Shown here piece by piece: positions 29,469 to 55,410 of a DNA stretch of 64,000 bases. The translations under genes were made by a program, and so were the position numbers. Location: assembly GCF_000717995.1 (NCBI RefSeq), contig NZ_JODM01000001.1, positions 62,001 to 126,000 on the forward strand, written 5' to 3'. The stretch comes from Streptomyces violaceorubidus. Its GTDB lineage: Bacteria > Actinomycetota > Actinomycetes > Streptomycetales > Streptomycetaceae. Within the stretch, counting starts at the first letter, position 1. Every line of letters starts with the position of its first letter. The notes beneath the pieces were generated by a model, which was not told the origin of the DNA, did not search any database, and saw only the letters and a program-made list of their open reading frames with translations.

Positions 29469-29574
29469 TCCGCAGCCGGGGCCCCTTTCTCGCTGAGGTT
29501 TCTCCCTGGGGCCCGCCGCGGGTGTCCCACTACCCTGCTGCCAGGTACCGGCGTACGGGGGAGGGGTGGACGCC

Positions 29575-31437
29575 ATGCGGCCGCTCGAAGTCGACGAGCC
29601 CACCGCGGTGGGGCCCTACCGGCTGCTCGGCCGACTGGGCTCCGGCGGCATGGGCCGGGTCTACCTGGGACGCAGCAGCGGCGGCCGCACGGTCGCGGTG
29701 AAGATCGTGCACCCGCACTTCGCCCTGGACGAGGAGTTCCGGGCCCGGTTCCGGCGCGAGGTGGCCGCCGCGCGGCGGGTCGGCGGCGCCTGGACCGCGC
29801 CCGTACTGGACGCGGACCCCGAGGCGCGCGTGCCGTGGGTCGCCACGGCGTACGCGGCCGGTCCGTCCCTGACGGCGGCCGTGGCGGACGGCGGCCCGCT
29901 GCCCGCCCACTCCGTTCGGGCGCTCGGCGCGGGCCTCGGCGAGGCACTGGCCGCGGTGCACGAGCTGGGCCTCGTCCACCGTGACGTGAAGCCGTCCAAC
30001 GTCCTGCTCACCCTCGACGGCCCCCTCCTGATCGACTTCGGCATCGCCCGCGCCACGGAGGGCACCGCCTCCCTGACCTCGACGGGCGTGTCGATCGGCT
30101 CGCCCGGCTACATGGCGCCGGAGCAGATCCTCGGCAAGGGCGTGACCGGGGCGGCGGACGTCTTCTCGCTGGGCGCGGTACTGGCGTACGCGACGACCGG
30201 ACTGCCGCCCTTCCCCGGCGACTCCTCGGCCGCGCTGCTCTACAAGGTCGTCCACGAGGAGCCGCGCCTCGACGGCCTGGACGGTGAGCTGCGCGAGCTG
30301 GTCGCCTCCTGCCTCGCCAAGGACCCGACCGCCCGCCCCGCCCCCGGGGAGGTGGCCAGGCGACTGGCCCCGGAGGGCGCGGCCCGCCTGGTGACCGGCG
30401 GCTGGCTGCCGGGGGCCCTGGTGGAGCGGGTCAGCCGGAGCGCCGTACAGCTGCTCAACCTGGAGGCGGCGGAGACCGGGCCGGGGGCGTCCGCGGGGGA
30501 GGCGTCGGGCCCCGTGGGGTTCAGCCGGCCGTCGCTCACGGCGGGCGGGGCCGGTGCTTCGCAGGGGCCGGGGGAGGGCGGGGCGGCACCCACGGCCGCC
30601 GGTGTCTTCGGTCCCCCGCCGGTGATGCCGACGCCTACGGCGGGGGCGTCGCCGTTTCCGGCCTCGTCGCCGTTTCCGGCCTCGTCGTCGTCCTCGTCTC
30701 CGTCCCCGTCCTCGTCCCCGTTCTCCTCCTCGTCCGTCCCCGGCCGGCGGGAGCCCGGGCCGGGTGGCGGTGCGGGTGTGGGTGTGGGTGTGGGTGCTGA
30801 TGCCGGTGACGCTGCCGGTGCCGGGGCCGGGCAGGGGCTCTCGGGGCCGGGCGCGGGGCACCCGCCCGGCAGGCTCGCCCTCTCCGTAGCGGCGACCTCG
30901 ACGCGGGGTGCCCAGGGGCGGGGGCGGCGGATCAGCTGCACCGTGGCGCTGGCGGTGGCGGGAGCGCTGGCGGCGGTGACGGTGGGGTCGGTGTTCGTCC
31001 TGGACCTGCTGCCGGGCTCGGGCAACGACGCGAACCACGCGGGCGGCGCCGACGGCTCCCACGAGCCGCCCGCCGCCACCGCGGGCACCCTGCCCGGCCG
31101 CTACCTCGGCACCTGGGAGGGACAGGCCGCCGCCCTGGACGGCAAGCTGCCCCTGGGCACCTTCCGGATCACCATCAGGCAGGCGAAGGTGGGCCAGGAG
31201 CTGGGCAGGCTCCACCAGACCGACGCGCTGGGCGGCGTCTGCGTCGACGTGATCACCCTCAAAGAGGTGACGGAGAAGCAGATCGTCGCCGGGTCCGTCG
31301 GCGCCGAGGGCAACCACGACGGCTGCAACCCCGCCCCCACCACCGTCACCTTCACCCCGGTCGGCGACGACCTCGACTACGCGTCGAGGAGCGAGGAGTC
31401 GGGGCGACCGGAGGCGCGGTTGTCGAGGATCGGGTAG
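29575..31437 (+). CDS. Transmembrane Ser/Thr protein kinase
   Basis: This is a 620 aa protein. The Hanks-type kinase domain spans residues about 15-270, with P-loop GSGGMGRVY, catalytic Lys in VAVKIV, HRDVKPSN, DFGIA and GSPGYMAPE. A ~170-residue Ser/Pro/Gly-rich linker includes FPASSPFPASSSSSS and a Gly-Val run. One TM (about 465-485) precedes a ~120-residue extracytoplasmic domain with two cysteines and no PASTA repeats. ATG 29575 has GGGGAGGGG at 8 bases; GTG 29566 is an alternative. It converges on the FHA-containing secretion ATPase, whose FHA domain could read its phosphothreonines (inference). Confidence 0.92.
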   Translation: MRPLEVDEPTAVGPYRLLGRLGSGGMGRVYLGRSSGGRTVAVKIVHPHFALDEEFRARFRREVAAARRVGGAWTAPVLDADPEARVPWVATAYAAGPSLTAAVADGGPLPAHSVRALGAGLGEALAAVHELGLVHRDVKPSNVLLTLDGPLLIDFGIARATEGTASLTSTGVSIGSPGYMAPEQILGKGVTGAADVFSLGAVLAYATTGLPPFPGDSSAALLYKVVHEEPRLDGLDGELRELVASCLAKDPTARPAPGEVARRLAPEGAARLVTGGWLPGALVERVSRSAVQLLNLEAAETGPGASAGEASGPVGFSRPSLTAGGAGASQGPGEGGAAPTAAGVFGPPPVMPTPTAGASPFPASSPFPASSSSSSPSPSSSPFSSSSVPGRREPGPGGGAGVGVGVGADAGDAAGAGAGQGLSGPGAGHPPGRLALSVAATSTRGAQGRGRRISCTVALAVAGALAAVTVGSVFVLDLLPGSGNDANHAGGADGSHEPPAATAGTLPGRYLGTWEGQAAALDGKLPLGTFRITIRQAKVGQELGRLHQTDALGGVCVDVITLKEVTEKQIVAGSVGAEGNHDGCNPAPTTVTFTPVGDDLDYASRSEESGRPEARLSRIG

Positions 31438-31534: not shown

Positions 31535-34500
31535 TCAGCCCGGCACCACCACCGTGCGCAGCTCTCCGTCGCCGAGGTGCAGCATGCCCTTGCCCGGCGT
31601 GACCTGGCCGCCGACCATCTGGCGCGAGACGCGCAGGCCGATGAGGTCGCCGCTGGAGGACTCCTGCGGGGAGAGCAGGATGCCGCGGCGGGCCTTCTTG
31701 GCGTCGACCTGCCAGCCCGAGAAGCCGCTGCACACGTCCTCCTCGTCACCGGCGATGACGAGGGCGAGGCCGCGTTCGGCACCCCGGGAGACGATCTTCT
31801 TCATCTGGCTCTCGGCGTCGCAGTCCTCCAGGATCTCGCCGTCGTCGACCAGGACGGCGATGGGCTCCTCCGGGCTCGCCCCGTCGATCAGCTCCTCGAA
31901 CTCGTCCTCGTCGATGTCGTCCCCGGTGAAGACCTTCAGTACGCCCTCCACGCCGTCCAGTTGGCGCACCGGCGACTGGCGGGGCGCCGCCACGACCAGG
32001 CGGGTGCCCTGGGCGAGGAGGGACTGGGCGACGTTCATCAGCACCGTGGAGCGGCCCGACTTGGCCGGTCCCGCGATGACGAAGGACGGCACGCCGTCGG
32101 CGAGGTCGGGACCGAAGCCGACGATCTCGTCGCCGCCGATGCCGACCAGCGCCCACAGCTTGGAGCGGGACGCCTCCGGGTCGCGCATCTCCCAGGCCTC
32201 GGGGAAGGAGATCCGGCTGGGCAGGCTGTCCACGCGGAACGGACGCCGGGACCGCGGGACATCGGCGTCGCGCGCGGTGGCGGCCTCGCCGATCGCGGAG
32301 ATCGCGGCGGCCTGGCCCTGGCCGGTGGTGTCCTCGCAGAGCAGCGCGAACTGCGTCTCCGTACCGGCCTCGTTGCGGAAGGCGCGGCCCGGCGGGATCT
32401 CCTCGGGCACCTTGCGGGACGGGATGCCGAGCGAGGCGAAGTCGCTGCGGTCGGCCAGCCGCAGGCCGTACTTGTCCTCGGTGAGGGTCGCGATCCGGCC
32501 CACCAGCAGGGTGCGGTCGCCGGTGAGGACCAGGTGGATGCCGACGCTGGCACCCTCGCGCATCATCGTCTGCAACTCGTCGGTCAGCGAGCCGTGGTCG
32601 ACCTCGCCGAGGGTGGGCACCCAGCCCTCCCAGCGGTCGAGGAGCACGACGATGTGCGGCAGCCGCTCACCCTCCTGCACCGAGGCCCGCTGCTCGCCGA
32701 TGTCCGCGAACCCGGCATCGGCCAACAGGTCCTGACGGCGCGACAGTTCGCCCTTGAGGCGGTTGACGAGCCGTACCACCCGCTCGGTCTGGTTGCGGCC
32801 CACCACCGCGCCGCAGTGCGGCAGCCGGGTCAGCGCGTTGAGGGCGCCGTTGCCGCAGTCGATGCCGTAGAGGTGGACGTCGGCGGTGGAGTGGGTGCGG
32901 GCCAGCGACCCCGCGATGGTCCGCAGCACCTGGGAACGGCCGCTGCGCGGAGCACCGCCGATCATCAGGTGCCCGAAGCTCGCGAAGTCGACGACGACCG
33001 GACGGCGGGCCTGGTCCGAGGGCAGGTCCTCGATGCCGTACGGGGCCGGCGGCAGCTTGCCCGGGGCGGCGCCGGCGAGCGCCGGGACCTCGATCTCGTC
33101 CAGCAGCAGCTTCTCGTCGAGCGCCGGCAGCCAGGGGCTGTGCTGGGCGGGGATGCCCATCGTCCGGTTGGCCTCGCGCACCGCGTCGACCAGTACCTTG
33201 AGGTCGGTGATCTCGTCGTCCTCGCGGGACTCGGTCTTCGGCTTGGTCAGCGCCGCCCGGCCCAGGTCCTCCCAGCCCAGCGGGCCGACCCAGGGTGCGA
33301 GCGCGGCCGGGTCGGCGGCGCCGGGCCGACGGCCGCCGACGCGCCCCGACTGGAAGGGGACCAGGGAGGAGTGACCGAGGCGCACATAGGCGCGGCCCGG
33401 GGTGTTCTTGGAGATGTGCCCGGCCTCGGGCGAGTCGATGACGTCCGAGGACTCGCCGCCGTCGGTCACGCGCAGCGCGATCCGGAGGTTGGTGTTGGCG
33501 CGGATCTCGGGGGAGACCACACCGCTGGGCCGCTGCGTGGCGAGCAGCAGGTGGATGCCGAGCGAACGCCCTCGCTGGGCGATGTTGACGAGCCCGGTCA
33601 CGAAGTCGGGAAGGTCCCGGACCATGGAGGCGAACTCGTCGATGACGATGAGCAGCCGGGGCACCGGAGCATGCGAGGGATCGCGCCTGACCAGGTCCTG
33701 GTAGTCCTCGATGTCCTTGGCGTCGGCGGCGGCGAGGATGTGCTCGCGCCGCTTCAGCTCGGCCCCCAGCGACTCCAGCGCCCGCTCGACCAGGTGCGCG
33801 TCGAGGTCGGTCACCATGCCGACGGTGTGCGGCAGCTTCACGCAGTCCTTGAACGCGGAGCCGCCCTTGTAGTCGACCAGCACGAAGGTCATGTTCTCCG
33901 GCGTGTTCGCGACGGCGAGGGCCGCCACGATGGTCTGCAGCAGCTCCGACTTGCCGGAACCGGTCGTACCGGCGATGAGTCCGTGCGGCCCGTCCTTGCG
34001 CATGTCGATGCCGAACGGCCCGTCGTACGACTCGCCGATGACGGCCATCGTCGACTGGCCGCCCATCCGCCACCGCGCCCCGATCGCGTCGGCCGTCGGC
34101 GGCTCCAGCTGGAGCACGTCGAGCAGCCGGCTGGCGCCGGGCAGCGCCGAGTCCTCGGTCTCGCCGCTGATGTCGCGCAGCGCGGACAGCGACCGCGCCA
34201 GCCGCAGACACCAGGCGGGCGTGACGAAGTCGGGCCGTACATCCGTGATCCGCTCGACCCCGGCCTCCTCGACCCGCAGCCGCAGTTTCTCGGTACGGGC
34301 CCGCTGCTCGGGCTCGGCGGGGGAGTCGGTGTGCCACGCCTGGAAGGACGGGAACCCTCCGGCGACCTGCCGCGCGGGCTGAGGCTGCTCGTCCGTCCGC
34401 CCGTTCTCCTCGGCCTTGGGCTCGGCGACGACGAACGCCTGGCACTCGCCCGGCAGGAACCGCTCCTCGGCGTCGAGACAGACGGCGAACATCGACACGG

Positions 34501-36106
34501 CCGGCCCCTCGCGCAGCAGCCGTACGACGCCGGGCAGCGACCGCAATCGCCGCGAGCCGTCCCACACCACCACGATGTCCGGATCGGCGAAGCTGGTCCC
34601 CTGCGCGCCGCTGCCCTTCTGCTCGGCGGCCTTCTTGCGGGCGTCGAGGATCTGCGTCAGCTCGCCGATGCGGGCCCCGACGGTCTCGGCATCGGTGCCG
34701 ATGAGGACGTTGACGTCCTGGCCACCGGAGGGCCGGGCGTGCGGCAGCCACCTCACCCAGTCCCACTCGCTGCGCGCCGAGTTCTCGCTCAGCACGTAGA
34801 ACTGCACGTCCATCGGGCTGTGCAGCGCGGCGGTCTGCGCGACGGCCCACCGCCCCAGCGAGCGCGCCGAGTCCCCGGGCCCCGCGATGCCGACGACCCC
34901 GAGGCCGCGCAGCGACAGCGCGACGGGCGCGTCCTCGATCTTCCAGGTGACCTGGCGGCGGTGGTCGTCCTGCTCCGGGTCGTCGAGCACGACCTCGGAC
35001 GGCAGCCGCCCGGTCCCCACCCGCAGCAGCAGGTGATCACGGTCGGTCCGCCGCCGCTCCCACAGCCGGGTCCGCGGCCCGGTCCCGATGGACAGGACGA
35101 CCGCCGGGTCGGGAATGGCCTGCCGCCGGTCGTCCCGCTCGGCGACCAGCGCGTCCTGCGCGTCCTTCTCGATCCGCGCCTTCTGCTCCTCGTACTCCTT
35201 GACCTGCTTGGCATGGGACTTGCGCCCGTGCTTCTTGTCGTTGAAGTAGTTGGCGAACAGCAGGATCGGGCTGAGCCCCGCCATGATCAGGTAGTACCAG
35301 CGCCCGAACACCGCCACGGCGACCACGGCACCGACGAGCGGCGTCAACGCCATCAGCCAGGGCAGCGGCCGGGCCTCGTACTCGCGGGGCGGCGAGGGCA
35401 GCCGGAAGTTGGTCTGCCGCTCGGCCGGACGCAGCCGGGGCGGCCGGTTGTAGTCCAGGCCCACCCCGTCCTCGGACCACTTGAGCGCGGCGTTGGGCGG
35501 TGCGTAACGGGCCAGCTCCACCAGCGAGTTGCCGACCGCTATCTGCCCCCCGAGCGGCCAGTCGTCTCCCTCCCGGTCCTTGACGGACTCCCCGTCGAGG
35601 GTGACCGCGTCCTCGTCGGCATGCATGGTGACCTTGCAGGTCCCGTCCGTGGCGACGGCCAGGGTGAGGGCACGGGCGTCGACCTCGGCGTCCTCGATGC
35701 GGACGTAGGCGGCCGGACCGCTCCCGATGTCGTACTTCCCCACCCCGAGCCGGTGCACGAACCCGGCCCCCGGCCCGCCGACGACCCGCAACTCCACGAG
35801 CCCGGTGGGCTCGCCGGGCAGACATCCGGAGGGGTCCTGCAGACTGACGACCGCGCCCTCGCGCAACGGCGACCCGATGACCGTGGCGGACGGATCGACG
35901 GCGTACCCGTCCACGTAGACGAGCGGCGCACCGCCGGCCCCCGCCTGCCCCTGGTGCCCGATCGGAATGACCTGCGCGCCCGCGACCCCGACCTGCTTGG
36001 CCAACTCCTCGGCGATGTCCCCGACGGTGGACTCGGGATCCGCGTCGAGCACGACGTCGGCGGAGCCCCCGCCGTACGGATCGACGACGGTCAGAGTCAG
36101 TCGCAC
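31535..36106 (-). CDS. EccC/EssC-type type VII secretion ATPase with ubiquitin-like and FHA domains
   Basis: This 1523 aa protein begins with a ubiquitin-like fold (about 1-100: RLTLTVVDPYGGGSADVVL, ending LREGAVVSL) and an FHA-like domain (about 110-215). Two TM helices follow near 255-300, then three FtsK/SpoIIIE P-loop domains. Domain 1 (Walker A GTTGSGKS near 710, Walker B LLIVIDEF) is canonical. Domains 2 (GAPRSGRS near 1050) and 3 (GPAKSGRS near 1345) have Arg in place of the P-loop Lys and no DE Walker B, as in EccC modules that bind substrate tails. FHA+2TM+ATPase is the Firmicute EssC plan. GTG 36106 follows GGGGAGGA. Confidence 0.92.
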   Translation of the reverse strand: MRLTLTVVDPYGGGSADVVLDADPESTVGDIAEELAKQVGVAGAQVIPIGHQGQAGAGGAPLVYVDGYAVDPSATVIGSPLREGAVVSLQDPSGCLPGEPTGLVELRVVGGPGAGFVHRLGVGKYDIGSGPAAYVRIEDAEVDARALTLAVATDGTCKVTMHADEDAVTLDGESVKDREGDDWPLGGQIAVGNSLVELARYAPPNAALKWSEDGVGLDYNRPPRLRPAERQTNFRLPSPPREYEARPLPWLMALTPLVGAVVAVAVFGRWYYLIMAGLSPILLFANYFNDKKHGRKSHAKQVKEYEEQKARIEKDAQDALVAERDDRRQAIPDPAVVLSIGTGPRTRLWERRRTDRDHLLLRVGTGRLPSEVVLDDPEQDDHRRQVTWKIEDAPVALSLRGLGVVGIAGPGDSARSLGRWAVAQTAALHSPMDVQFYVLSENSARSEWDWVRWLPHARPSGGQDVNVLIGTDAETVGARIGELTQILDARKKAAEQKGSGAQGTSFADPDIVVVWDGSRRLRSLPGVVRLLREGPAVSMFAVCLDAEERFLPGECQAFVVAEPKAEENGRTDEQPQPARQVAGGFPSFQAWHTDSPAEPEQRARTEKLRLRVEEAGVERITDVRPDFVTPAWCLRLARSLSALRDISGETEDSALPGASRLLDVLQLEPPTADAIGARWRMGGQSTMAVIGESYDGPFGIDMRKDGPHGLIAGTTGSGKSELLQTIVAALAVANTPENMTFVLVDYKGGSAFKDCVKLPHTVGMVTDLDAHLVERALESLGAELKRREHILAAADAKDIEDYQDLVRRDPSHAPVPRLLIVIDEFASMVRDLPDFVTGLVNIAQRGRSLGIHLLLATQRPSGVVSPEIRANTNLRIALRVTDGGESSDVIDSPEAGHISKNTPGRAYVRLGHSSLVPFQSGRVGGRRPGAADPAALAPWVGPLGWEDLGRAALTKPKTESREDDEITDLKVLVDAVREANRTMGIPAQHSPWLPALDEKLLLDEIEVPALAGAAPGKLPPAPYGIEDLPSDQARRPVVVDFASFGHLMIGGAPRSGRSQVLRTIAGSLARTHSTADVHLYGIDCGNGALNALTRLPHCGAVVGRNQTERVVRLVNRLKGELSRRQDLLADAGFADIGEQRASVQEGERLPHIVVLLDRWEGWVPTLGEVDHGSLTDELQTMMREGASVGIHLVLTGDRTLLVGRIATLTEDKYGLRLADRSDFASLGIPSRKVPEEIPPGRAFRNEAGTETQFALLCEDTTGQGQAAAISAIGEAATARDADVPRSRRPFRVDSLPSRISFPEAWEMRDPEASRSKLWALVGIGGDEIVGFGPDLADGVPSFVIAGPAKSGRSTVLMNVAQSLLAQGTRLVVAAPRQSPVRQLDGVEGVLKVFTGDDIDEDEFEELIDGASPEEPIAVLVDDGEILEDCDAESQMKKIVSRGAERGLALVIAGDEEDVCSGFSGWQVDAKKARRGILLSPQESSSGDLIGLRVSRQMVGGQVTPGKGMLHLGDGELRTVVVPG

Positions 36107-36393: not shown

Positions 36394-36696
36394 ATGGCCA
36401 AAGACCTTGACATCACATATCAGGACATGCGGGATGCCGCCAAGCATGTCGTGAAGGAGAAGGAAAAGCTCCAGGAGAAGCTCGACGGCCTCCGCAAGTA
36501 CATCGCGAACCTGGTCGAGTCGGGCTACGTCACGAAGTCCTCCTCCAAGGCCTTCGACGACAACTTCGACGAGTTCACTCGCGGCGCCAAGGACACCCTC
36601 GACGGCCTCGACGGCATGGGCGACTACCTCACGACGGCCGCCGACAAGTTCGAGCAGATCGACGAGGAACTGGCGAAGCAGGCGCGGAGCAAGTGA
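36394..36696 (+). CDS. WXG100-like (ESAT-6 superfamily) protein lacking the WXG motif
   Basis: This 100 aa all-helical hairpin protein is rich in Lys/Glu/Asp (AKHVVKEKEKLQEKLDGLRKYIANL, turn, SSKAFDDNFDEF, GMGDYLTTAADKFEQIDEEL). At the turn the usual Trp-x-Gly is SGYVTKSSSKAF: size and the Ala-Phe after the turn are kept, but Trp and Gly are missing. Divergent placement from the secretion ATPase suggests a substrate or structural partner of it. GAGAGGAAG precedes the ATG. A 17-bp hairpin follows. Confidence 0.85.
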   Translation: MAKDLDITYQDMRDAAKHVVKEKEKLQEKLDGLRKYIANLVESGYVTKSSSKAFDDNFDEFTRGAKDTLDGLDGMGDYLTTAADKFEQIDEELAKQARSK

Positions 36697-36727
36697 CTCC
36701 TTGCCGGTAGGCGTGGGCGTTCCCACT

Positions 36728-36765
36728 CGGTGCGGCCCTCGGAACCCGTTCCGAGGGCCGCACCG
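36728..36765. terminator. Strong bidirectional terminator
   Basis: Perfect 17-bp stem (36728-36744 with 36749-36765) around CCCG, between the WXG100-like gene and the convergent 36783 gene. Confidence 0.85.
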
Positions 36766-36782
36766 CTGCCCGGCGTGCAGCC

Positions 36783-37499
36783 TCAGTCCTGGTCACCGAG
36801 GGGGTCGTGGAACGAGAGCGTCTGAAGAATGGTCGACATCAGCCGGTAGATCTCGCTCCAGTGGTCCATGGAGGGCGTGTTGAGAGTGAACACCGCGGTG
36901 TACGGACCTGTGGGAAAAGGGACGTGCACCTGGATCTGGCCGGTGAGGAGCTTCGTCTTCTCGTTCTCGGAGCCGGTCGTGACTCCTGGGTTGAGAGGGT
37001 ACTCACGCAGGGTGATGCAGGAGACCGCCGGGCCGCAGGGGAGATCGACCCAGATGGCGTCGTTGTACGGGTCGCCTGACAGACTCGCGAGTATGCCCTG
37101 GGCGACCACATCGGCGTCCGCCTCGGACTGGTCGGTCGGGATGATTCCCACGGTGAACGCGCAGTGGGCGACACCCTCGGCGGGGTCGTACCGCTTGCCT
37201 TCGTCCGCATCCGAGGCCGCGTCGTCCTCGGCGGTGGAGAAGAGCCCCATCGCGGCGTAGGAGAGGCCGGTGGATGCCATCAGCTCCCCTATGGCCGCGT
37301 AATAAGGGGCAGCGGATTCCCAGATGCGTTCGTCGCCGCGAGAGTAGAGGTTTCGCACCAGCGTCGACGCGCTCTCCACGCGTTCCTCAGGGGTGGCGTC
37401 CAGTGGGAGCGCGAAAAATCCCTCCGGGGCGATGAACCAGAAGGGCGGAAGAAAGTCCATGCCTGGTGCGGCGAGTGGTATGGCTATGTCAGACGTCAT
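36783..37499 (-). CDS. Secretion-island protein, SLxVP..TFRF family (copy 1)
   Basis: This 238 aa protein of unknown function is the last gene of the minus-strand island. Its layout matches the proteins at 40940 and 57592. A short N-terminal strand FWFIAPEGFFALPL is followed by a helix, a GLSYAAMGLF core strand and IQVHVPFPTGPYTAVFTLNTPS. The end, HWSEIYRLMSTILQTLSF, parallels EAFHDIFDAVTGTFRFV. There is no signal peptide or TM. Repeated occurrence beside each large WXG-type protein suggests a dedicated chaperone or immunity protein (inference). Confidence 0.75.
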   Translation of the reverse strand: MTSDIAIPLAAPGMDFLPPFWFIAPEGFFALPLDATPEERVESASTLVRNLYSRGDERIWESAAPYYAAIGELMASTGLSYAAMGLFSTAEDDAASDADEGKRYDPAEGVAHCAFTVGIIPTDQSEADADVVAQGILASLSGDPYNDAIWVDLPCGPAVSCITLREYPLNPGVTTGSENEKTKLLTGQIQVHVPFPTGPYTAVFTLNTPSMDHWSEIYRLMSTILQTLSFHDPLGDQD

Positions 37500-37552
37500 A
37501 GGAAAAGCTGTGCCGTTCTCGTCCAGTGCGGGGCACGAAGTGTGCTCCCTCG

Positions 37553-38467
37553 TCAGGTGAGGAAGTCGTCGGGATGATATTCCGTCAGGGCGAGTTGTTT
37601 ACCATCGGCATCCATAACCGTGGTTAGGTTGGAGTGCCCGAAAAATGCGTGGACTGTGCTGGGAGCCAGTACTTCGATACGAAAGCAACCGCATGCGTTC
37701 TGCTTGACGAGTGGCTCTTGGGCGTCTGGTGCCTGCGCTGACCTGAATCGCTCCGCGGTCTCCTGCTGAGCAGGTGTCAGAGAGTCCAAAGAGATAAAAT
37801 CAAGCGGCTCGGAGAGGTAGCGAGTGAGTCTCTCTCGTTTTACGCTGCTGACTCTGGTCCAGGATCCGTCCGTGAAAGTTATTTTTACGTCGTTTCCGGT
37901 TTTGAAGTCGCGCAACTCAACACTTCTGATCTCGGACCGCGAGATGTCCCACAGGAATTCGTCGTCGATAAGAGTGTCACGTCCCTTGACGTACGGAAAG
38001 CCGACGATCACCAATCGACGGTCCGTGACGACCGCATGCGTGCGGTAGTGGTCAGGAGATGACCGGGCCGGATCCAACTGCCACGGCAAGGTGCGAGCAG
38101 TGGTGCCCGGAGCAGCCCAGATGACCGGGAAGTCTTCGACCTCGTCCGCACGGTCGTGAGAGAAGTCCGCACCCGTCTTTCCGGACGGCCCGCCGACGCT
38201 GCCTCCTTGGGAGGACAGCGCTCCCCACGCCAGGGTGACCGCGGCGATGGCCGTGCCCTTGAGCGTGTTCAGCGCGGTCGCTTTCGGTGCCGACCGTGCC
38301 GTGTAGACCGGTCCTTCCGGCCAGCCGACCAATTGCCGCTGGATGTCGTTGCGTTCTGTGTCGCGGAACCAACGCTTTCCCCTGACACGCATCGCCGCAC
38401 CGGTGGCGAACGTGACGGGGGCGCGAGCGAGGAGTGTCTCACCTCGTGGGGGCAGCCAGAGAGTCAT
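37553..38467 (-). CDS. PH-like domain protein of the secretion island
   Basis: This 304 aa protein has one hydrophobic stretch (about residues 65-85). Its C-terminal half is rich in strands and resembles a bacterial PH-like domain: VVTDRRLVIVGFPYVKG, DISRSEIRSVELRDF and ITFTDGSWTRVSS, followed by a helix. The same pattern (LLVLTPDRVVL, IVFADGSWLTVIT) occurs in the 43764 protein. PH-like domains usually mediate membrane or protein contacts; the role here is unknown. Base composition is noticeably less GC-rich at 37550-38000 than in the neighbours. Confidence 0.72.
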   Translation of the reverse strand: MTLWLPPRGETLLARAPVTFATGAAMRVRGKRWFRDTERNDIQRQLVGWPEGPVYTARSAPKATALNTLKGTAIAAVTLAWGALSSQGGSVGGPSGKTGADFSHDRADEVEDFPVIWAAPGTTARTLPWQLDPARSSPDHYRTHAVVTDRRLVIVGFPYVKGRDTLIDDEFLWDISRSEIRSVELRDFKTGNDVKITFTDGSWTRVSSVKRERLTRYLSEPLDFISLDSLTPAQQETAERFRSAQAPDAQEPLVKQNACGCFRIEVLAPSTVHAFFGHSNLTTVMDADGKQLALTEYHPDDFLT

Positions 38468-38519: not shown

Positions 38520-39740
38520 TCAGTCGCCGGTCACATGCCCATAGATCTTCGGAGCGACCTTAAGGCCGGCATCCAGTGCCATCCCGGCGGCACTGAACGG
38601 GTTCAGATTCACACCTGGTATCAAGTTGGCGCCCTTGGTCCCGATCAATTGGCCCGGGTGGTAGCCGGCGTAGGAGAGACCGCCCATGCGCGACATCAGG
38701 CCGCTGGTCGAGTGAGCGACCTCGTAGACCTCGTCCGAGAAACCGCCGATCTTCACCAGACCGGCCTTGCCCAGGCCTCCTGTGATAGCGGCGGATTCCT
38801 TGCCGAAGGAGAGCAGGACGCGTGCCGTGCCGATCTCGGTGGCTTGGAATCCCTTACCGAGCCTGCTCGCGGTAGCGGTCGCCTTGCCGAGGCCGACGAC
38901 CTTCGCGCCCTTGCCGAGCATACCGATACCCGGCAGCAGTCCCACGGCGTCAAGACCGATTTGTGCCCAGCCCACGTCGGCGCCGGCGGCCTTGGCCACT
39001 CCGTGAGTCGCCAGTGACAGCCCGGCGCCGATGAGCGCCGCCGTGCCGAAGATCGCCGAGAGAGGCGGGAAGGGCAGGGTCACGATGGCCAGCATGCCCA
39101 GAACCGCCGTGATGTCGCTGAGCACGTCACCGATCGCCTTGATCAGGTCGGCGTGCTCCTTGAGCCAGTCGCCGGTGGCGTCCCAGGCGTCGGCGATGCC
39201 CTTGCCGAGCTTGTCCCAGAAACCGGGCTCGTTGGGGGCGATGTCGGCGGCCTTGTCCAGCTCCTTGCCGATGTTGCGAGCCGCTTCCCTGAAGCGTTCC
39301 TCCAGGTCGTGGACCTTCTGGATGACGCCGTCGACCGCACTGGACGCCTCGCCGAGCTCCTTGCTGCCCTTGCCGTCGGCCTTGGCCTCGGCGTCGGCCC
39401 TCGCATCGAGTTTGTCGCCGGCCGACTTCTCGAGCCGGTTCGCCTCGTCCTGGAACTCCTTCAGCTCGTTGGACCAGCGGTGCAACGCGCGTGAGGCCTT
39501 GTCGAAGGAATCGAAGCTCTTGCGGATGAGCGGGGTGACGTCCTGGCCGATGTACTCGGTGAACGCGATCGCGGTCTTGCCCTTCCAGGCGCCGCATTCG
39601 ATGCGCTCGAGTTCTCTCACCGCGGTGCCCAGGTCACTGGCCAGACCGCCGAGCTTCTTGGCGAGGTCGCGGGTGTCCTCGACGTCTCCGGGGGTGGGAT
39701 CCCAGCCTATGTTCGGGAACGCTGGACGCGTACCGGCCAC
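38520..39740 (-). CDS. Large WXG-helical putative type VII substrate (copy 1)
   Basis: This 406 aa protein has an N-terminal ~190-residue helical region beginning GWDPTPGDVEDTRDLAKKLGGLASDL, with GAWKGKTAIAF as a W-x-G turn and a heptad-rich ALHRWSNELKEFQDEANRLEK. A hydrophobic Ala/Gly-rich middle (about 205-265) and a Gly/Lys-rich tail follow. This is the architecture of LXG/WXG polymorphic substrates, although no known toxin domain is recognisable at the C-terminus. It lies 2 bases after the small WXG-like gene 39743, as LXG effectors lie next to their helical partners. Confidence 0.8.
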   Translation of the reverse strand: MAGTRPAFPNIGWDPTPGDVEDTRDLAKKLGGLASDLGTAVRELERIECGAWKGKTAIAFTEYIGQDVTPLIRKSFDSFDKASRALHRWSNELKEFQDEANRLEKSAGDKLDARADAEAKADGKGSKELGEASSAVDGVIQKVHDLEERFREAARNIGKELDKAADIAPNEPGFWDKLGKGIADAWDATGDWLKEHADLIKAIGDVLSDITAVLGMLAIVTLPFPPLSAIFGTAALIGAGLSLATHGVAKAAGADVGWAQIGLDAVGLLPGIGMLGKGAKVVGLGKATATASRLGKGFQATEIGTARVLLSFGKESAAITGGLGKAGLVKIGGFSDEVYEVAHSTSGLMSRMGGLSYAGYHPGQLIGTKGANLIPGVNLNPFSAAGMALDAGLKVAPKIYGHVTGD

Positions 39741-39742
39741 GT

Positions 39743-40048
39743 CTACTTCCCCTTCTTGGCCTTGGCGGCTTTGAGGGACTCGGCCAGCTCCAGGTCGAGG
39801 TCGCTGAACGTGTCACCGATGTGGTTGATCATCTTCACGGCGCCCTGCGTGTGCTTGCCCAGCTGCTTGATCCCGTAGCCCCACTCGTCCGCGAAGTCCT
39901 GGACGTCGTCGATGAGTTTCGGTTCACCGACAGCCGAGGCGTCGGCGCCGCGCAACGTCCGGCGCGTGGCTTCCATGCGGTCGCTGATGGTGGAGAACGT
40001 CTCCTTCAGGTGCTGGAAGATGGTGTCGTCGAGTGTCAGGTCGCTCAT
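39743..40048 (-). CDS. Small WXG100-like partner protein
   Basis: This 101 aa helical protein contains DEWGYGIKQLGKH, a W-x-x-G variant of the WXG turn. It is Lys/Ala-rich at the C-terminus (LKAAKAKKGK). It is encoded just upstream of the large WXG-type protein 38520 and is expected to form a helical complex with its N-terminal region for export. The 207 bases before it (40049-40255) hold no gene. Confidence 0.8.
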   Translation of the reverse strand: MSDLTLDDTIFQHLKETFSTISDRMEATRRTLRGADASAVGEPKLIDDVQDFADEWGYGIKQLGKHTQGAVKMINHIGDTFSDLDLELAESLKAAKAKKGK

Positions 40049-40255: not shown

Positions 40256-40894
40256 TCAGTGAGCCGCCCCAGGAAGCTGCAGCGTACGCGCGAAATTGTC
40301 CAGGGGCACCATGGCCGCGGCGATCACTTCCGGATCGTCGTGATGTCCGCGGAGGACGACATCAGGGAGGCCGGGCGGCGTGTGCCAGTGGTACGACACC
40401 GAGGTCATCATGATGCTGCTGTCTGCGGGGTAGGAGCGGATGACCCGGACCCCGTCCTCGCCCAGGTGCGGAGAAGCGAACGGAATGCTGCCGGTTCGCT
40501 GTTGCCACTCGGGGATGGCCGGGTTCGGCACCGTGAGCGCGGTGAACCCCTCGCAGGAGGCCGCGTCACGAGCCTCGCAGCGTAGGCGGGTGGCGTGCAT
40601 GACCAGGGGCATGTAGGTCAGCGGAACGGGGTGGTAGATGAACGCCTCGTCGGCCTCCAGCTTGTCCCGGAGCGTGACGATCGTTTGTTCGTAGAAGCTC
40701 TTGTGGAACCGGCGAAGTTTCCGGGTGAGTTCGACGCCGTGCGCGGCGGCCAGATCGGTCAGAGTTGCATCCAGCCATTCCTTGAAGGTCTTCTTGTCCG
40801 TCTGGAGCCAGAGATAGCCCCAGAGGCCCTTATTCGCATCCGTATCGATATGAAGTGCACCGAGGTCGGCGCTCCACAGGGTGCCTTCAGACAT
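40256..40894 (-). CDS. Secretion-island hypothetical protein
   Basis: This 212 aa soluble protein has no signal peptide or TM. It starts LWSADLGALHIDTDANKGLWGYLWL, has a helical Lys-rich segment (about 30-75) and then alternating strands, including SSIMMTSVSYHWHTPPG. The size, central strands and C-terminal helix recall the SLxVP..TFRF family in the neighbouring genes, but I cannot show homology by eye. It is encoded between the 39743 and 40940 genes in the same direction. Confidence 0.7.
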   Translation of the reverse strand: MSEGTLWSADLGALHIDTDANKGLWGYLWLQTDKKTFKEWLDATLTDLAAAHGVELTRKLRRFHKSFYEQTIVTLRDKLEADEAFIYHPVPLTYMPLVMHATRLRCEARDAASCEGFTALTVPNPAIPEWQQRTGSIPFASPHLGEDGVRVIRSYPADSSIMMTSVSYHWHTPPGLPDVVLRGHHDDPEVIAAAMVPLDNFARTLQLPGAAH

Positions 40895-40939: not shown

Positions 40940-41572
40940 TCATGCGTAGCTCCAGCGGAAAGTGCCCATCACGGCATCGAAAAGTTCCACGAGCGTGTCG
41001 TAAAAGGCGGGATCCGTGTCGGGCGCGATCAGTGCGCTGAAAGCGAAGGTGAGGTACCGGTCGGGAGCGCTGTCCGGGACCGGAACGAAGTACTCGACCC
41101 GGCGGTGAGCGACGTCGACGCCTTGGGCCACGTCGGCGGGTACCTCTCGCTCCGATCGCAGGGCTGCGGTGTCGTCGAGCGTCCGCGTCACGGCACCAGG
41201 AGTCACGGAGGCGAGCGCGGCCAGGACCGCTTCCGGGCCGCTGTCGGACCTGACCCGTGGAATTTCGATCGGCTCGGACGCCACGATCGAGACAGGCAAT
41301 GCGAAGCCGTGGAGGCGTTCGGTCGGGAGGTAGAGCGTCATTCCTCCCTTGGCGCTGGCCCGGCGGATGACCTTCTTCATTTCCTGATTGAGCTTCAACC
41401 GGGCCTTGGGAATGTCATCCTTGGGAAAGTCGACGGGCAACTGCGCCACGGCCTTACGGATGATGCGGTCCATCGCTTCCTGGGTCCCGGTGTGCAGCGG
41501 GATCACGTCCCAGCCGGGTGGCGGCACCAGATTGAAGCCGTTCGGGGTCCGAGGGTGCTCAGCGGTGGCCAT
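40940..41572 (-). CDS. Secretion-island protein, SLxVP..TFRF family (copy 2)
   Basis: This 210 aa protein starts NGFNLVPPPGWDVIPL and ends YDTLVELFDAVMGTFRWSYA, matching the ends of the 57592 protein (SLSVPESWWEF...FHDIFDAVTGTFRFV). The middle has GGMTLYLPTERLHGFALPVSIVAS, equivalent to GALYLGCMDENFDGVPLSATVTVSV. It is cytoplasmic by sequence. It overlaps the upstream 41559 gene by 14 bases and follows the large WXG protein 41982. Confidence 0.78.
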   Translation of the reverse strand: MATAEHPRTPNGFNLVPPPGWDVIPLHTGTQEAMDRIIRKAVAQLPVDFPKDDIPKARLKLNQEMKKVIRRASAKGGMTLYLPTERLHGFALPVSIVASEPIEIPRVRSDSGPEAVLAALASVTPGAVTRTLDDTAALRSEREVPADVAQGVDVAHRRVEYFVPVPDSAPDRYLTFAFSALIAPDTDPAFYDTLVELFDAVMGTFRWSYA

Positions 41573-41972
41573 GGTGCTCCCGCATCCCTTCCACTGCGTA
41601 GGCGACGCCGACGAAGAGAGCCCACGCTGGGGCGGCGATGATGCCCGGCCAGAAGCCGAGCATCAAAGAAGGCAGAAAGAAGCCGCTGCCCATGGCGAGG
41701 TCTCGGGTGAGGTAAGGTGGACGCCCCGCATGTCGAGGGTAATTCTTAAAGACCCAGACATAGTGGAGAAGGCAGCCGATGATCCCGGCTTCATAGACGT
41801 ACAGAACGTCGTCCCTCAGAAACTTCGGCACGAAGATCATGATTCCGATCACCGGAAACACCAAGGGCATTCCGATGAACAGCGTCAGCCTGAGCTGCCG
41901 GTTGGGGCCGGTACCGAGTCCCGTGCGAGCTGCTTCGGCTTCGGCGATGCGCTGCGCCGAGGACAGGTCCAT
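41559..41972 (-). CDS. Small polytopic membrane protein
   Basis: This 137 aa protein has three to four hydrophobic helices (about residues 28-48, 55-75 and 95-125) and an N-terminal amphipathic helix beginning MDLSSAQRIAEAEAARTGLG. It is squeezed between the large WXG protein (10 bases) and the 40940 protein (overlap), so it is probably part of the same operon. No family is recognised; a membrane immunity or export accessory role is only a guess. Confidence 0.72.
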   Translation of the reverse strand: MDLSSAQRIAEAEAARTGLGTGPNRQLRLTLFIGMPLVFPVIGIMIFVPKFLRDDVLYVYEAGIIGCLLHYVWVFKNYPRHAGRPPYLTRDLAMGSGFFLPSLMLGFWPGIIAAPAWALFVGVAYAVEGMREHHGHR

Positions 41973-41981: not shown

Positions 41982-43337
41982 TCACCAGTGGGTATCGGGG
42001 GCGGGCTTCAGAGTGTTGTCTTTCCAGTCGGAATAGCCCTGGTTGTACGGCTTTTCGCCGGTCCCGAGCTTTTCGTGTGTCCAACTCGTCAGGTCGCTCT
42101 TGCCCAGCACCTTGTCCGTGACGTCCATTCCCATGCCGGTCCACGCGATGCCGAGACCTACCTGGTAGGACTTGTACGCCTTGTCCGCGGCAGCCCCGGC
42201 GGCCGCCGGGAAGGCGGCCTTGTTCGCCGCCAGCATCTTTGCCATGCCTGCCATTTCCTTGTCGCCCAGGTGCAGAAGGGTCGACAACGGGCTGACCCGC
42301 AGAGGCCCCTTAGCTACTAGGCCGACGTTTTGAGAGATGGACTTGCGTATGTCGTTACGCGCCACACGGACGATTTGGCGCCCCGCTCCTTCCGGCATCT
42401 TGGTCATCAACCGCCCCATGTCGTCCATGACGCCCTTGACGCCCCTAAGTCCTCGGCTCAGGCCGGCGGTCCGGGCGGCCTGAGCGGCGCCCACGGTGGC
42501 CTTGGCACCGCTGGCGAGCTTCGCGGCGGCCCCGAGGCCACCCACGACGAGGAGTCCACCCACGACGTCGAAGATGGCATCCGTCCAGGTGGCGTCGCCG
42601 GATGCCACCAGCAGGAGTCTCAGTCCGATCGTGAGCGCCGCGATGCCTAGGACGAGCAGGTTCAAGCCGGGAATGGCGAGCGCCAGAAAGCCCGCAAACG
42701 TTGCGACCCAGCCGAGAACATCGATGAACGCCTTGATCCCGTCCGCATGGTCATGGACCCACCCCTTGACGTCGTCCCACCACGAGTCCTCGATCACGTC
42801 GTCGATCTCGTCGCGGATCTTGCCCGCGTAGTGGTTGGCCCGGGCGTCCCGGTCGCCGGTAACGGTGTGCAGCCGAGTGCGGTACGACTGCAGGGGGTCG
42901 TCGATGGGACTGGTGCCACTGGGCGACGTCTGCGGAACGTCCTTGTCCTCTGAGTCGGACTCCTTGGCCTTGTCGGCCTCGACCTCCTCCTGCTTGGCCT
43001 TGGCCTGGCGCAGGATCTTGTCGGCGTCGCCCTGGAAGTCCTCCAGCTCGGTCGACCACTTGGCGAGGTGACCGTGCACACGCTCGTATCGGCTGGCTAC
43101 CTCCCGCATGTGCTTCTCCAGCGTGGAGGACTCGTCGCGCAGGGCCTTGACGTACTTGCCCTTGAGGGTCTCCTCGTCGCTGATCGCCTTCAGGTTCTTG
43201 GCCTGGTCACGGAGCTTCTTGGCTACCGAGATCATGTGCTTGACCTCGGCACGGATCTCCTCTGGCTCCCCGGGAACGGGATCGGCCTCGCACAGCGGCT
43301 GCCAGTCCACCGGACGGCGCTTGGATGTCGGTGTCAT
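41982..43337 (-). CDS. Large WXG-helical putative type VII substrate (copy 2)
   Basis: This 451 aa protein starts DWQPLCEADPVPGEPEEIRAEVKHM, followed by a coiled-coil helical domain to about residue 150 (HMREVASRYERVHGHLAKWSTELEDFQGDADKIL). A linker contains SWWDDVKGWVHDHADGIKAF, then come strongly hydrophobic helices (about 225-300) and a C-terminal region ending in YSDWKDNTLKPAPDTHW. The same WW..DW-hydrophobic arrangement occurs in 38520 and 58215. Start ATG 43337 is 5 bases from the stop of small WXG protein 43342. Confidence 0.82.
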   Translation of the reverse strand: MTPTSKRRPVDWQPLCEADPVPGEPEEIRAEVKHMISVAKKLRDQAKNLKAISDEETLKGKYVKALRDESSTLEKHMREVASRYERVHGHLAKWSTELEDFQGDADKILRQAKAKQEEVEADKAKESDSEDKDVPQTSPSGTSPIDDPLQSYRTRLHTVTGDRDARANHYAGKIRDEIDDVIEDSWWDDVKGWVHDHADGIKAFIDVLGWVATFAGFLALAIPGLNLLVLGIAALTIGLRLLLVASGDATWTDAIFDVVGGLLVVGGLGAAAKLASGAKATVGAAQAARTAGLSRGLRGVKGVMDDMGRLMTKMPEGAGRQIVRVARNDIRKSISQNVGLVAKGPLRVSPLSTLLHLGDKEMAGMAKMLAANKAAFPAAAGAAADKAYKSYQVGLGIAWTGMGMDVTDKVLGKSDLTSWTHEKLGTGEKPYNQGYSDWKDNTLKPAPDTHW

Positions 43338-43341: not shown

Positions 43342-43641
43342 TCACTTCTTCTGCTTCTTCTTGCTTGCCTCGGCCAACTGCTTGTCGAGGTCCTCAAACG
43401 CCTTCTTGCTGCCGGCCACGAGCGTGCCGACCGATTCGATGGACTCGATGAGTCTGGTGCGGTAATCGTCCCAGTTGTCGACGAAGTCCTCCATGGCTCC
43501 GGCGACAGCACCGGACCCCCAGTGCTCCTTCATGTCGTCCCGGCGGCTCTCGATGTCCTCGAAGGTCTTCTTGAGCTGGCCGAGCTTACGTTCGCAATCC
43601 GCGAGAAATTCGTAGTCGACCGTCAGGTCCGGCTCGCCCAT
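43342..43641 (-). CDS. WXG100-family protein
   Basis: This 99 aa helical hairpin has a true W-x-G at MKEHWGSGAVAGAMEDF and a Lys-rich C-terminus. It resembles the 57228 protein along its length (LGQLKKTFEDI..., VAGAMEDFVDNWDDYRTRLIESIESV versus VNDALDDFESNWEDGREDITQQLDAL). It is expected to be secreted with, or to chaperone, the large protein encoded 5 bases downstream. It starts the minus-strand subcluster; the 122 bases before it probably carry a promoter. Confidence 0.87.
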   Translation of the reverse strand: MGEPDLTVDYEFLADCERKLGQLKKTFEDIESRRDDMKEHWGSGAVAGAMEDFVDNWDDYRTRLIESIESVGTLVAGSKKAFEDLDKQLAEASKKKQKK

Positions 43642-49966: not shown

Positions 49967-50127
49967 CCCAGGTCGGGCGGGTGCGTCAGGGGTTGCCCCG
50001 GGACGTCAACGGTCGGGCGGGCACGGGTGAAGTGTCCGAAATTGCAGAGGATTCTGCGTACTTGGGGGCTCCGCGTCCAAGTGGGTTCGTGGCAGACAAT
50101 TTTCTTGGTTGTACGGGGAGCGGTTGC

Positions 50128-50847
50128 GTGAAGATCCAGGAGCGTACGGGGGCGGGCGCGGGACGTTCCGCGGCTCCGGCTCAGCCGTCGGTCGGTGACC
50201 GGCTTCCCAGCCCTCCTCGCGAGCGCAAACCGGCGCTGGCCGCTCTGGCGGTGCTGCTGATCCTGGTGGGTGCGCTGGGCGCGACGATGCTGGTGCTGCG
50301 GGCCGGGGACCGGGTGGAGGCCATCCAGCTGACGGCCGACGTCAAGGCCGGTGAGTCCATCACCGAAGACAACATCAAGTCCGTCATGGTGAACGACGAC
50401 TCCGGTGCCCACTTCGTCGCCTGGTCCCAGCGCGCGGGCCTGATGAAGCTCCAGGCCAAGTCCACCCTCTACAAGGGCACGGTCGTCGTCGGCGAGATGT
50501 TCGCCGACAAGTCCGCCGTGGAGGAGGGCAAGGTCACGGTCGGCGTCTCCCTCAAGGAGGGCCAGTACCCGAAGGGCCTGGACTCGGGCGACAACGTCGC
50601 CGTCTACCGCGTCGGCAACAAGGCGGCCGGCGGCGGCGACCAGGACGGCGCCTCCGGCTCGGCCGGTGCCGCCAACTCGCTGCTGGTCGAGCGGGCGGTG
50701 GTGGAGGACGCCACCGCGTCCTCCGGCGACAGCTTCTCCGGCACCAACCTGCCCGTCACGCTGACCGTCGACGCCGACGACGCCGCGGCACTGACGCAGG
50801 CCGCGTCCGCCGGCGAGGTCGCCGTCGTCCTCATCCCCGGCAACTAG
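50128..50847 (+). CDS. SAF-domain protein (CpaB/RcpC-like) of the Tad system
   Basis: This 239 aa protein has an N-terminal TM (about residues 38-58) followed by a SAF domain (VEAIQLTADVKAGESITEDNIKSVMV...). CpaB proteins stabilise Tad/Flp pili. It is the first gene of the tad operon. GTG 50128 has GGGGAG 7 bases upstream; longer in-frame starts would run into the promoter leader. Confidence 0.87.
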   Translation: MKIQERTGAGAGRSAAPAQPSVGDRLPSPPRERKPALAALAVLLILVGALGATMLVLRAGDRVEAIQLTADVKAGESITEDNIKSVMVNDDSGAHFVAWSQRAGLMKLQAKSTLYKGTVVVGEMFADKSAVEEGKVTVGVSLKEGQYPKGLDSGDNVAVYRVGNKAAGGGDQDGASGSAGAANSLLVERAVVEDATASSGDSFSGTNLPVTLTVDADDAAALTQAASAGEVAVVLIPGN

Positions 50848-50865
50848 AAGGCGACCGAAGAAGCC

Positions 50866-51747
50866 ATGGCCCTCATCGCCCTCGCCGCCGACAAGGGTTC
50901 CCCCGGCGTCACCACCGCGGCCGTCGCCCTCGCGGCGGTCTGGCCGCGCCGTGTCCTGCTCGCCGAGACCGACCCGGCGGGCGGCGACCTGGTGTACCGG
51001 TCGGCAGCCGCGCACGGCGGTCCGCTGAACCCGAACACCGGCATGCTCTCGATAGCCGCCACCGCGCGCCGGGGCCTGGTGCCCGACCAGCTCTGGGACC
51101 ACGTACAGCCGCTCAGCGGCGGCCTCGAAGTCCTCGTCGGACTCGGCATCTCCGAGCAGGCCGCCGGGCTGGCCGGCCTGTGGCCCACCCTCGGCCGGGC
51201 CTTCGCCTCCCTCGCCGACTCCCCGAACGCGCCCGCCGACGTCATCGCCGACTGCGGACGCGTCAGCGGGGACTCCCCGGCCACCGAGCTCTTCCCGCAC
51301 GCCGCCCTGGTGCTGCTGCTCTCCCGTACCGAGCCCGAGGCCATCGCCCGGGTACGGGACCGCGCCGCCGCCCTGTCCAACAAGCTGCACGGCGGACCGC
51401 GCGGGGCCGCGAGCCTCGGGATGCCGCTGATCGGCGTCGTCCTGGTCGCCGACCCCAACAGCGCCGCCAAGCTCTCCGGGCAGGTCAACGACATGCTGGT
51501 GCACGCCCAGACCGGCGCCCGCGTGGTCGGCACGATCGCCGACGACCCGGCCGGTGCCGACCAGTTGGCCGGGCGCAGGCGCGGGCGGCTGGAGAAGTCG
51601 CTGCTCATCCGCTCGGCCCGCAAGGTCACCTCGGACCTGTACCAGCAGTTCGGGGCCGCCTGGTCCATGCCCACCGGCCCCGGCGCCGCAGGTCCCACCG
51701 GTCCCGCCGGCACCGGCATGTCCGGCCACGCGGGGGCCGGCCGATGA
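50866..51747 (+). CDS. TadZ/CpaE-like MinD-family ATPase
   Basis: This 293 aa protein begins with a deviant P-loop-like segment ALAADKGSPGVTTAAVALA and the switch I-like ETDPAGGDL. The nucleotide-binding lysine of a deviant Walker A (KGG) is displaced, so ATP binding is uncertain. Downstream blocks (VIADCGRV) fit the MinD/CpaE fold. TadZ proteins localise the pilus machine at the pole. The C-terminal tail is Gly/Pro/Ala-rich (GPTGPAGTGMSGHAGAG). It overlaps tadA by ATGA. Confidence 0.82.
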   Translation: MALIALAADKGSPGVTTAAVALAAVWPRRVLLAETDPAGGDLVYRSAAAHGGPLNPNTGMLSIAATARRGLVPDQLWDHVQPLSGGLEVLVGLGISEQAAGLAGLWPTLGRAFASLADSPNAPADVIADCGRVSGDSPATELFPHAALVLLLSRTEPEAIARVRDRAAALSNKLHGGPRGAASLGMPLIGVVLVADPNSAAKLSGQVNDMLVHAQTGARVVGTIADDPAGADQLAGRRRGRLEKSLLIRSARKVTSDLYQQFGAAWSMPTGPGAAGPTGPAGTGMSGHAGAGR

Positions 51748-53051: not shown

Positions 53052-53065
53052 CCGGGAGAATGCGG

Positions 53066-55029: not shown

Positions 55030-55118
55030 CGCAGTCTCCGGCGCACCCGCCGCAGCCCCCATCCAGCAGCTCCGAGCCGCTTCGCTCCCAGAACTGATAC
55101 GAGAGGACAGAACCCACC

Positions 55119-55379
55119 ATGAACGGACGGAACCTCCGCACCGGCACCACGGGCATCGTGCCCGTCGACTTCCTGATCACCTTCCTGCGGGCCCGCGTGG
55201 ACCGCGCCCGCTCCGGGGAGCTGGACCGCGGCGCCTCCGCGGTCGAGTGGGTCATCATCTCCGCGGTCGTCGTCGCGATCGTCGGCGTGGTGGCCGCCAT
55301 CATCAACGCCGCGCTCAGCGACGGCGCCAACAAGGTCGGCGACTGCATCAAGGGCGCGGACGCGGGCAAGACCTGCTGA
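55119..55379 (+). CDS. Flp-type pilin
   Basis: This 86 aa protein has a long leader (about 37 residues) and then RGASAVEWVIISAVVVAIVGVVAAI. That is a class III prepilin site (cleavage after Gly, Glu at +5) followed by the hydrophobic assembly helix. The mature pilin would be ~48 residues with two C-terminal Cys (DCIKGADAGKTC) that could pair. GAGAGGA precedes the ATG. It is probably the major subunit. Confidence 0.85.
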   Translation: MNGRNLRTGTTGIVPVDFLITFLRARVDRARSGELDRGASAVEWVIISAVVVAIVGVVAAIINAALSDGANKVGDCIKGADAGKTC

Positions 55380-55410
55380 CCGGCCGACGCCAGGTTCTGA
55401 CGGGGACGAC

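Follow-up and report, generated by a model that had tools for sequence, protein, structure and literature searches.

A candidate type VII-like secretion locus in Streptomyces violaceorubidus, with an EssC-like ATPase that carries a fused ubiquitin-like domain

Introduction

What does an EssC-like secretion ATPase do in an actinobacterium when the usual ESX partners are not beside it? The 2024 survey PMC11217815 divides type VII secretion systems (T7SS) into ESX (T7SSa) in Actinomycetota, T7SSb in Bacillota and eight more types, of which T7SSd alone is placed in Actinomycetota. In a window of 64,000 nucleotides, the whole stretch of S. violaceorubidus DNA that was analysed, a first-pass annotation made from the letters had seen an EssC-like ATPase at 31535..36106, and this observation was confirmed. 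We consider it probable that the gene encodes the motor of a type VII-like secretion system, from an EssC-type lineage distinct from the EccC of ESX. By the features tested, the system belongs neither to T7SSa nor to T7SSb, and one of the features that define T7SSd, the FHA motif, is missing.

The ATPase

The gene is located on C1, one of the 282 contigs that make up the 7.65 Mb genome. Its reading frame runs on the minus strand from 36106 to 31535, with a GTG start and GGGGAGGACAAGC just ahead of it. The protein and its parts are:

31535..36106, minus strand: EssC-like ATPase of 1523 aa (ubiquitin-like domain, FHA, hydrophobic hairpin and D0-D3)
35828..36106, minus strand: ubiquitin-like (YukD/EccD-type) domain, residues 1-93
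35501..35803, minus strand: FHA fold that has lost the phosphothreonine motif, residues 102-202
35237..35380, minus strand: hydrophobic hairpin, residues 243-290, found by alignment in a region that aligns with EccC/YukB
33317..34039, minus strand: D1, the first FtsK/SpoIIIE ATPase domain, Walker A intact

The ATPase reaches up to 98% identity with those of named Streptomyces records, one of which is labelled Kitasatospora. Pfam gave FtsK_SpoIIIE (212 bits, in two stretches), and the EssC-like plan claimed at first pass is borne out by a nearly full-length match of the NCBIfam EssC model to residues 218-1484, though its score (561.6 bits) misses the cut-off of 778.4. The EccCa (424.5 bits, cut-off 509.15) and EccCb (322.5 bits, cut-off 346.55) models also remained below their cut-offs, and their summed scores are as high as that of EssC. 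At family level these profiles point to a membrane-bound ATPase of the EccC/EssC type, as expected for type VII secretion, while the curated cut-offs of the named subfamilies are missed. The best solved relatives were EccC (4nh0), Bacillus subtilis YukB and EccC5. The hairpin region, in which a hydropathy scan scored one segment, probably forms two membrane helices. At the position of the Walker A lysine, all 41 rows compared have lysine in D1, whereas D2 has arginine in 27, lysine in 12 and threonine in 2, and D3 arginine in 35, lysine in 5 and valine in 1.

A search of plasmids with the ATPase gave 564 records, each with less than 60% identity at its best place. Since the two best plasmid rows among the matches listed, from Embleya (51%) and Streptomyces (45%), are both full-length, relatives of the ATPase are present on large plasmids too. 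A second paralogue was observed on contig C3 (L010:8705-12568, corresponding to G000:C3:308704-312567); its N-terminus is similar, its FHA looks canonical by eye, its FtsK part is degenerate, and the gene is divergent from an adjoining Ser/Thr kinase gene (6655-8487).

The N-terminal domains

The fused ubiquitin-like N-terminus proposed at first pass was found again by three approaches. Comparison with the ubiquitin-like domains of EccD by hhalign, using an alignment of 29 of 30 loci (L200 left out), gave 96.4; the YukD HMM matched orthologues of the ATPase below its cut-off; and the topology of residues 1-93 in a structure model is consistent with a YukD/EccD ubiquitin-like domain. Pfam showed no match for this domain on the window's ATPase, and a call from Pfam alone was for that reason dropped. 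Fold searches listed FHA rows only and have no bearing on the ubiquitin-like domain; for the FHA domain itself, also part of the first-pass description, the beta-sandwich is present.

The phosphothreonine motif of the FHA domain is intact in 0 of the 18 rows of the window's clade, against 18 of 23 other rows at the aligned positions. These positions were read from locus L146, with the letters usual for FHA domains; L009, which is the EccC of this genome, and the paralogue on C3 were left out of the counts. Having lost the motif, the FHA of the window probably binds its protein partners in a phosphate-independent way, as reported for EssC, whose FHA is likewise without a phosphothreonine motif (PMC11217815). 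For the same reason a phosphothreonine switch acting through the ATPase's own FHA was rejected.

Related N-terminal ubiquitin-like segments were also observed in seven T7SSd-like and kindred ATPases (L146, L148, L159, L164, L165, L169 and L173). In the open-access papers listed we saw no account of the locus, nor of a Streptomyces protein that fuses YukD, FHA and EssC parts.

The cassette beside the ATPase

Conservation of the neighbourhood was evaluated in 81 loci, namely the best 80 of 168 Streptomyces loci plus the window, with a GC3-based gene caller and single-linkage clustering; all counts over loci in this section refer to that set. Rates for the divergent WXG100 protein, the kinase, the effector-like family, the Mog1-like families and mqnA were taken only from loci with enough flank. 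The neighbours in the window are:

29566..31437, plus strand: Ser/Thr kinase, predicted to have a single membrane helix followed by a C-terminal part
36394..36696, plus strand: divergent WXG100 protein of 100 aa, candidate EsxA/TsxA (Pfam WXG100 65.2 bits, cut-off 27.3)
36783..37499, minus strand: Mog1-fold superfamily protein, cluster 10 (hhalign 97.3 to the modelled family, cluster 5)
37553..38467, minus strand: conserved 304-aa cassette protein (cluster 14, 24/81 loci)
38520..39740, minus strand: candidate substrate 1, 406 aa, with WXG100-like helices followed by two hydrophobic stretches (T7SS_signal 23.5 bits, below cut-off)
39743..40048, minus strand: small WXG100-like protein paired with substrate 1 (grouped with the WXG100 family by clustering; no Pfam hit)
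40256..40894, minus strand: cassette protein of 212 aa whose relation to the Mog1-fold families is weak at best (hhalign 18.3, 1.3 and 25.5)
40940..41572, minus strand: Mog1/PsbP/LpqN/Eag-fold protein, by fold match
41559..41972, minus strand: small 137-aa cassette protein, hydrophobic by eye (cluster 21, 14/81 loci)
41982..43337, minus strand: candidate substrate 2, with two hydrophobic stretches
43342..43641, minus strand: small WXG100-like protein paired with substrate 2 (21.5 bits for WXG100, below cut-off)

The divergent WXG100 gene adjoins the start of the ATPase in 64 of 76 loci and was not called in the other 12. As in type VII secretion, a WXG100 protein is present at the window's locus; the letters W-x-G are absent from the window's copy. 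This protein and the small partners of the substrates agree with the first-pass remark that WXG100-like partners surround the ATPase. The suggestion of a minimal, stand-alone exporter found no support in that wording, given the recurrent WXG100, kinase and effector-like cassettes, the Mog1-fold proteins and the Tad pilus genes. The Ser/Thr kinase is within four genes of the ATPase in 51 of 71 loci and missing in 20, a kinase beside the ATPase being a feature of T7SSd as well. The effector-like family was found in 70 of 74 loci, at least one of the Mog1-like clusters 5, 10, 12 and 13 (12 weakly so) in 70/74, and mqnA in 59/65. WXG100-like and effector-like genes also adjoin the ATPase in two genomes negative for EccB, G073 and G101 (loci L130 and L131). 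The gene order is presumably that of S. coelicolor SCO4503-SCO4508. The upstream region of sco4508 served as a promoter in one paper.

Members of the effector family are 269 to 607 residues long, mostly 385-531, and every one of the 111 contains one or more strong hydrophobic stretches, with two in each of the window's members. Mean pairwise identity (600 random pairs among the 103 of 111 members with 380-520 residues) lies at 0.23-0.37 over the first 300 residues and at 0.16-0.22 beyond them, which makes the tail the most variable part. The cassette (36107-47600) has 65.6% G+C, against 71.9-73.9% in three surrounding stretches, in keeping with a possible frequent replacement.

The 40940..41572 protein has a fold match to Eag chaperones, while DUF1795 (Eag) gave no Pfam match to it up to E 1. 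Compared with the Eag chaperones of type VI secretion (T6SS), such as SciW and EagT6, its identity is only 8-10%, LpqN and TplEi score above Eag and Mog1 equals it; the fold alone is thus undecisive on function.

No conserved membrane partner that could replace EccB/D/E or EssB/EsaA was detected among the recurrent neighbours of the 81 loci, save the optional kinase. Neither was a large Ig-rich gene like TsdI, the ATPase being the only long recurrent family among the 60 largest.

Several other genes were observed on the cassette side or elsewhere. Two families, in the window at 44441-45574 and 45523-46227, occur in 52/81 and 40/81 loci; their products are apparently exported, as judged by eye, and that of 44441-45574 has no Pfam match. 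An orphan WXG100 protein of 142 aa (59058-59486, minus strand; 29 bits, over the cut-off), which resembles the start of the effector family, is placed near the Tad genes. Outside the window, a WXG100-like stretch (G000:C1:268120-268335; 25.9 bits, below cut-off) lies in an open frame of 1515 residues, possibly a large substrate. Two f17 proteins of about 1700 residues (L139:961-6066 and L140:1141-6279) cluster with the window's effector family and are perhaps long versions of the substrates.

Phylogeny of D1 and relation to T7SSd and T7SSb

The tree of D1 was built with IQ-TREE from 46 rows and 281 of 359 columns, L010 being left out; one row has the species label 'Mxe'. Four EccC rows are split from the other 42, YukB among them, with support 100/98. 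The window's D1 groups with three genomes of its own genus (100/99) inside an 18-row set from eight families (98/98), which is nested in a 27-row group (95/95). The YukB branch is long (2.46), the bootstrap of the tree had not settled, and the deep join may be false. The term EssC-type should consequently be read as a statement on architecture with an unsure deep placement, because the summed EccCa and EccCb score also equals that of EssC.

We call two loci of the wider family T7SSd-like for what they encode: L146 has genes for PP2C, FHA and kinase proteins, while in L148 an Ig/fn3-rich stretch of 1068 residues lies upstream of the ATPase. Of 7990 candidates scored against the L146 ATPase, 731 proteins were relatives at E <= 1e-30. 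Those of the 120 listed that have a name in their source are called FtsK/SpoIIIE domain-containing, FHA domain-containing, S-DNA-T family FtsK/SpoIIIE or cell division protein FtsK, and 'type VII' is in none of these names.

Could the locus be an outlying member of the named T7SSd rather than a separate variant? That system (TsdA/C/D/H/I, in Olsenella and Bifidobacterium) shares with ours the phylum, an FHA-bearing FtsK-type ATPase, a WXG100 protein and a membrane Ser/Thr kinase (PMC11217815); the first-pass idea that an FHA-bearing ATPase is the Firmicute plan is for this reason out of date. The T7SSd-like loci moreover have an N-terminal domain related to that of the window group (hhalign 97.4 between the two). 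However, in the D1 tree L146, L148 and their kin form a separate group of 12 rows (95/71), with no named TsdC among the rows. The FHA motif lost in the window's clade is reported as well conserved in TsdC (PMC11217815), and here the ubiquitin-like domain is fused, the kinase optional and TsdI lacking among the recurrent neighbours. We regard membership of T7SSd as unlikely.

T7SSb (EssC/YukB) resembles our system in its single chain of FHA, hairpin and D0-D3, in its FHA lacking the motif (PMC11217815) and in the WXG100 gene near the ATPase; it differs in that its ubiquitin-like protein is a separate gene, and in that the window's ATPase misses the EssC cut-off. EssB/YukC had no match up to E 1 in the whole genome.

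Linkage to Tad pilus genes

The window holds one further group of genes:

49981..56861, plus strand: Tad/Flp pilus genes (CpaB-like, CpaF, TadB, two TadE and TadE/G-like, by Pfam; RcpC/CpaB below cut-off)

In a sample of 296 genomes of the class, CpaF was matched at E <= 1e-100 in 71 and at E <= 1e-200 in 46. Among these 46 close-CpaF genomes the ATPase is on the same contig, 3.3-23.3 kb away, in 37 (same strand in 20, opposite in 17), on another contig in two and 2.09 Mb away in one (G089), and six have no listed hit. In five of the six an ATPase relative covering most of the length is beside CpaF, while G271 has only a 29% EccC-like match. Altogether the ATPase is less than 30 kb from a close CpaF in 42 of 46 genomes from four families (f1, f17, f19 and f26), the genomes not being independent samples. 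Loci with this linkage are the window, L135, L142, L170, L214-L218 and L227-L237. A diverged CpaF (36-38% identity) adjoins the ATPase in L149, L168 and L172.

Two observations concern the surroundings of the Tad genes. A LysM-like/BTAD protein, 1026 aa long in L142, is often beside them, its BTAD part identified by Pfam and its LysM part by eye. The stretch L232 (G271:C20) holds a close CpaF and no EssC-type ATPase, the 29% identical EccC-like match lying about 5 kb away.

This linkage would be explained if the ATPase mainly served the Tad pilus, in assembly or in secretion of pilus-associated proteins, with the WXG100 cassettes secondary. Against this reading stand the distance in G089 and the fetched stretches of f12, f13, f16, f18, f28 and two f17 genomes (L139/L220 and L140), which hold no close CpaF near the ATPase, many being extended on one side only; in Streptomyces, besides, the WXG100 and substrate genes are nearer to the ATPase. 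We hold a mainly pilus-serving role to be quite improbable. Still more speculative, and slightly less probable, is a composite exporter made of the ATPase together with the linked Tad apparatus. In it the ATPase would load substrates guided by WXG100 proteins, Mog1-fold (Eag-like) chaperones would keep these substrates soluble, and Tad platform proteins would replace EccB/D/E or EssB/EsaA. If true, such an exporter would add one more type VII architecture to ESX and T7SSd in Actinomycetota. Since the linkage recurs in four actinobacterial families, a functional tie is testable.

Independence from ESX

The first-pass annotation had recognised no EccB, EccD, EccE or mycosin in the window and had called for a search of the rest of the genome for EccB, EccD and EssB, among others. 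Profile searches of the genome gave no match to EccB, EccD or mycosin at the ATPase locus. The single EccB and the single YukD-type match (EccD) are on contig C18, together with an ESX-type EccC and a WXG100 pair; the best mycosin match, over the cut-off, is on C33, with one below it on C18 and none on C1. The search thus turned up EccB and EccD, elsewhere in the genome, and not EssB.

With the ATPase (P0002) as query, 203 of the 296 genomes gave a match at E <= 1e-40, ESX EccCs counted in, and 102 gave EccB. At a best E <= 1e-200 the ATPase was found in 68 genomes, 20 with EccB and 48 without, at most five EccB candidates being scored per genome; the figures are 30 with and 61 without at 1e-150, and 37 and 85 at 1e-100. 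All 20 strong-match genomes of f19 are EccB-negative, as are 3 of 10 in the window's genus. The system is patchy in that genus, with a strong match in 10 of 28 sampled genomes (own included), and the ATPase is undercounted in f17, where BLAST hits are split. In 22 chosen EccB-negative genomes YukD was over the cut-off in three (G101, G197 and G174) and at E <= 0.01 in six, partly through the ATPase's own N-terminus, which in G073 is the sole YukD match; the other 16 have none at that threshold. A phylum-wide sample gave a match at E <= 1e-40 in 48 of 246 genomes (EccCs and genomes of the same class included), 27 of the 48 outside the class.

By gene content the ATPase system is therefore independent of ESX. 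This accords with the first-pass proposal of an exporter distinct from the ESX locus of the genus, and an ESX core accompanying the ATPase in all genomes, named there as grounds for rejecting it, was not found. T7SSa is alike in its D0-D3 ATPase relatives and in the EccD ubiquitin-like domain, and unlike in that the window's ATPase bears an FHA, misses the EccCa and EccCb cut-offs and has no EccB, EccD or mycosin beside it. The idea that the ATPase is an additional motor of the ordinary ESX machine encoded on C18 would fit the presence of that machine in the same genome and the EccD-like matches that persist in EccB-negative G101 (64.5 bits, with an EccC-like match as well) and G197 (85.2 bits), both of which may have a partial or missed ESX; the EccB-negative genomes contradict it unless EccB was missed there, and we deem it very improbable. 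A DNA translocase of the FtsK/TraB kind, as the FtsK_SpoIIIE domains and database names such as 'FtsK/SpoIIIE domain-containing protein' might suggest, is scarcely credible with TraB at 29 bits and FtsK at 68.5 against 561.6 for EssC, in a WXG100 and YukD-like context unfit for DNA transfer.

Proposed working and significance

Anatomy, conservation, independence from ESX and linkage were observed, and from them we infer how the motor of a type VII-like system might work. The ATPase would sit in the membrane via its hairpin, with D1 as the main engine driving transport, by analogy with EssC/EccC. D2 and D3, in which arginine replaces the P-loop lysine, may mainly bind substrate signals at C-terminal domains. 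The fused ubiquitin-like domain would act in cis as EsaB/YukD does in T7SSb or the EccD domain in ESX, docking near D1 during assembly, and the FHA would be a protein docking module and not a phosphothreonine reader. The divergent WXG100 protein could be a co-secreted activator. The WXG100-like proteins that contain membrane-helix stretches, and that are each paired with a small WXG100-like partner, are the likely substrates; the adjoining Mog1-fold proteins may be chaperones of those stretches, or immunity proteins. In its working the locus appears to resemble a type VII system.

The joining of a ubiquitin-like domain to the motor itself is a second fusion. PMC11217815 describes T7SSd as 'surprisingly' without a ubiquitin-like protein, and the related domain fused to the T7SSd-like ATPases of L146 and L148 could explain that remark. 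That survey also reports a linkage of ATPase and Tad pilus genes for T7SSg and T7SSh, in few genera of Bacillota and with ATPases lacking FHA; the linkage recurs here in another phylum, in four actinobacterial families. The membrane-helix substrates beside Eag-fold proteins suggest, by analogy, that a chaperone logic like that of T6SS may operate in type VII secretion. More broadly, an FHA-bearing lineage of the EssC plan is present in many families of Actinomycetota, including genomes without detected EccB.
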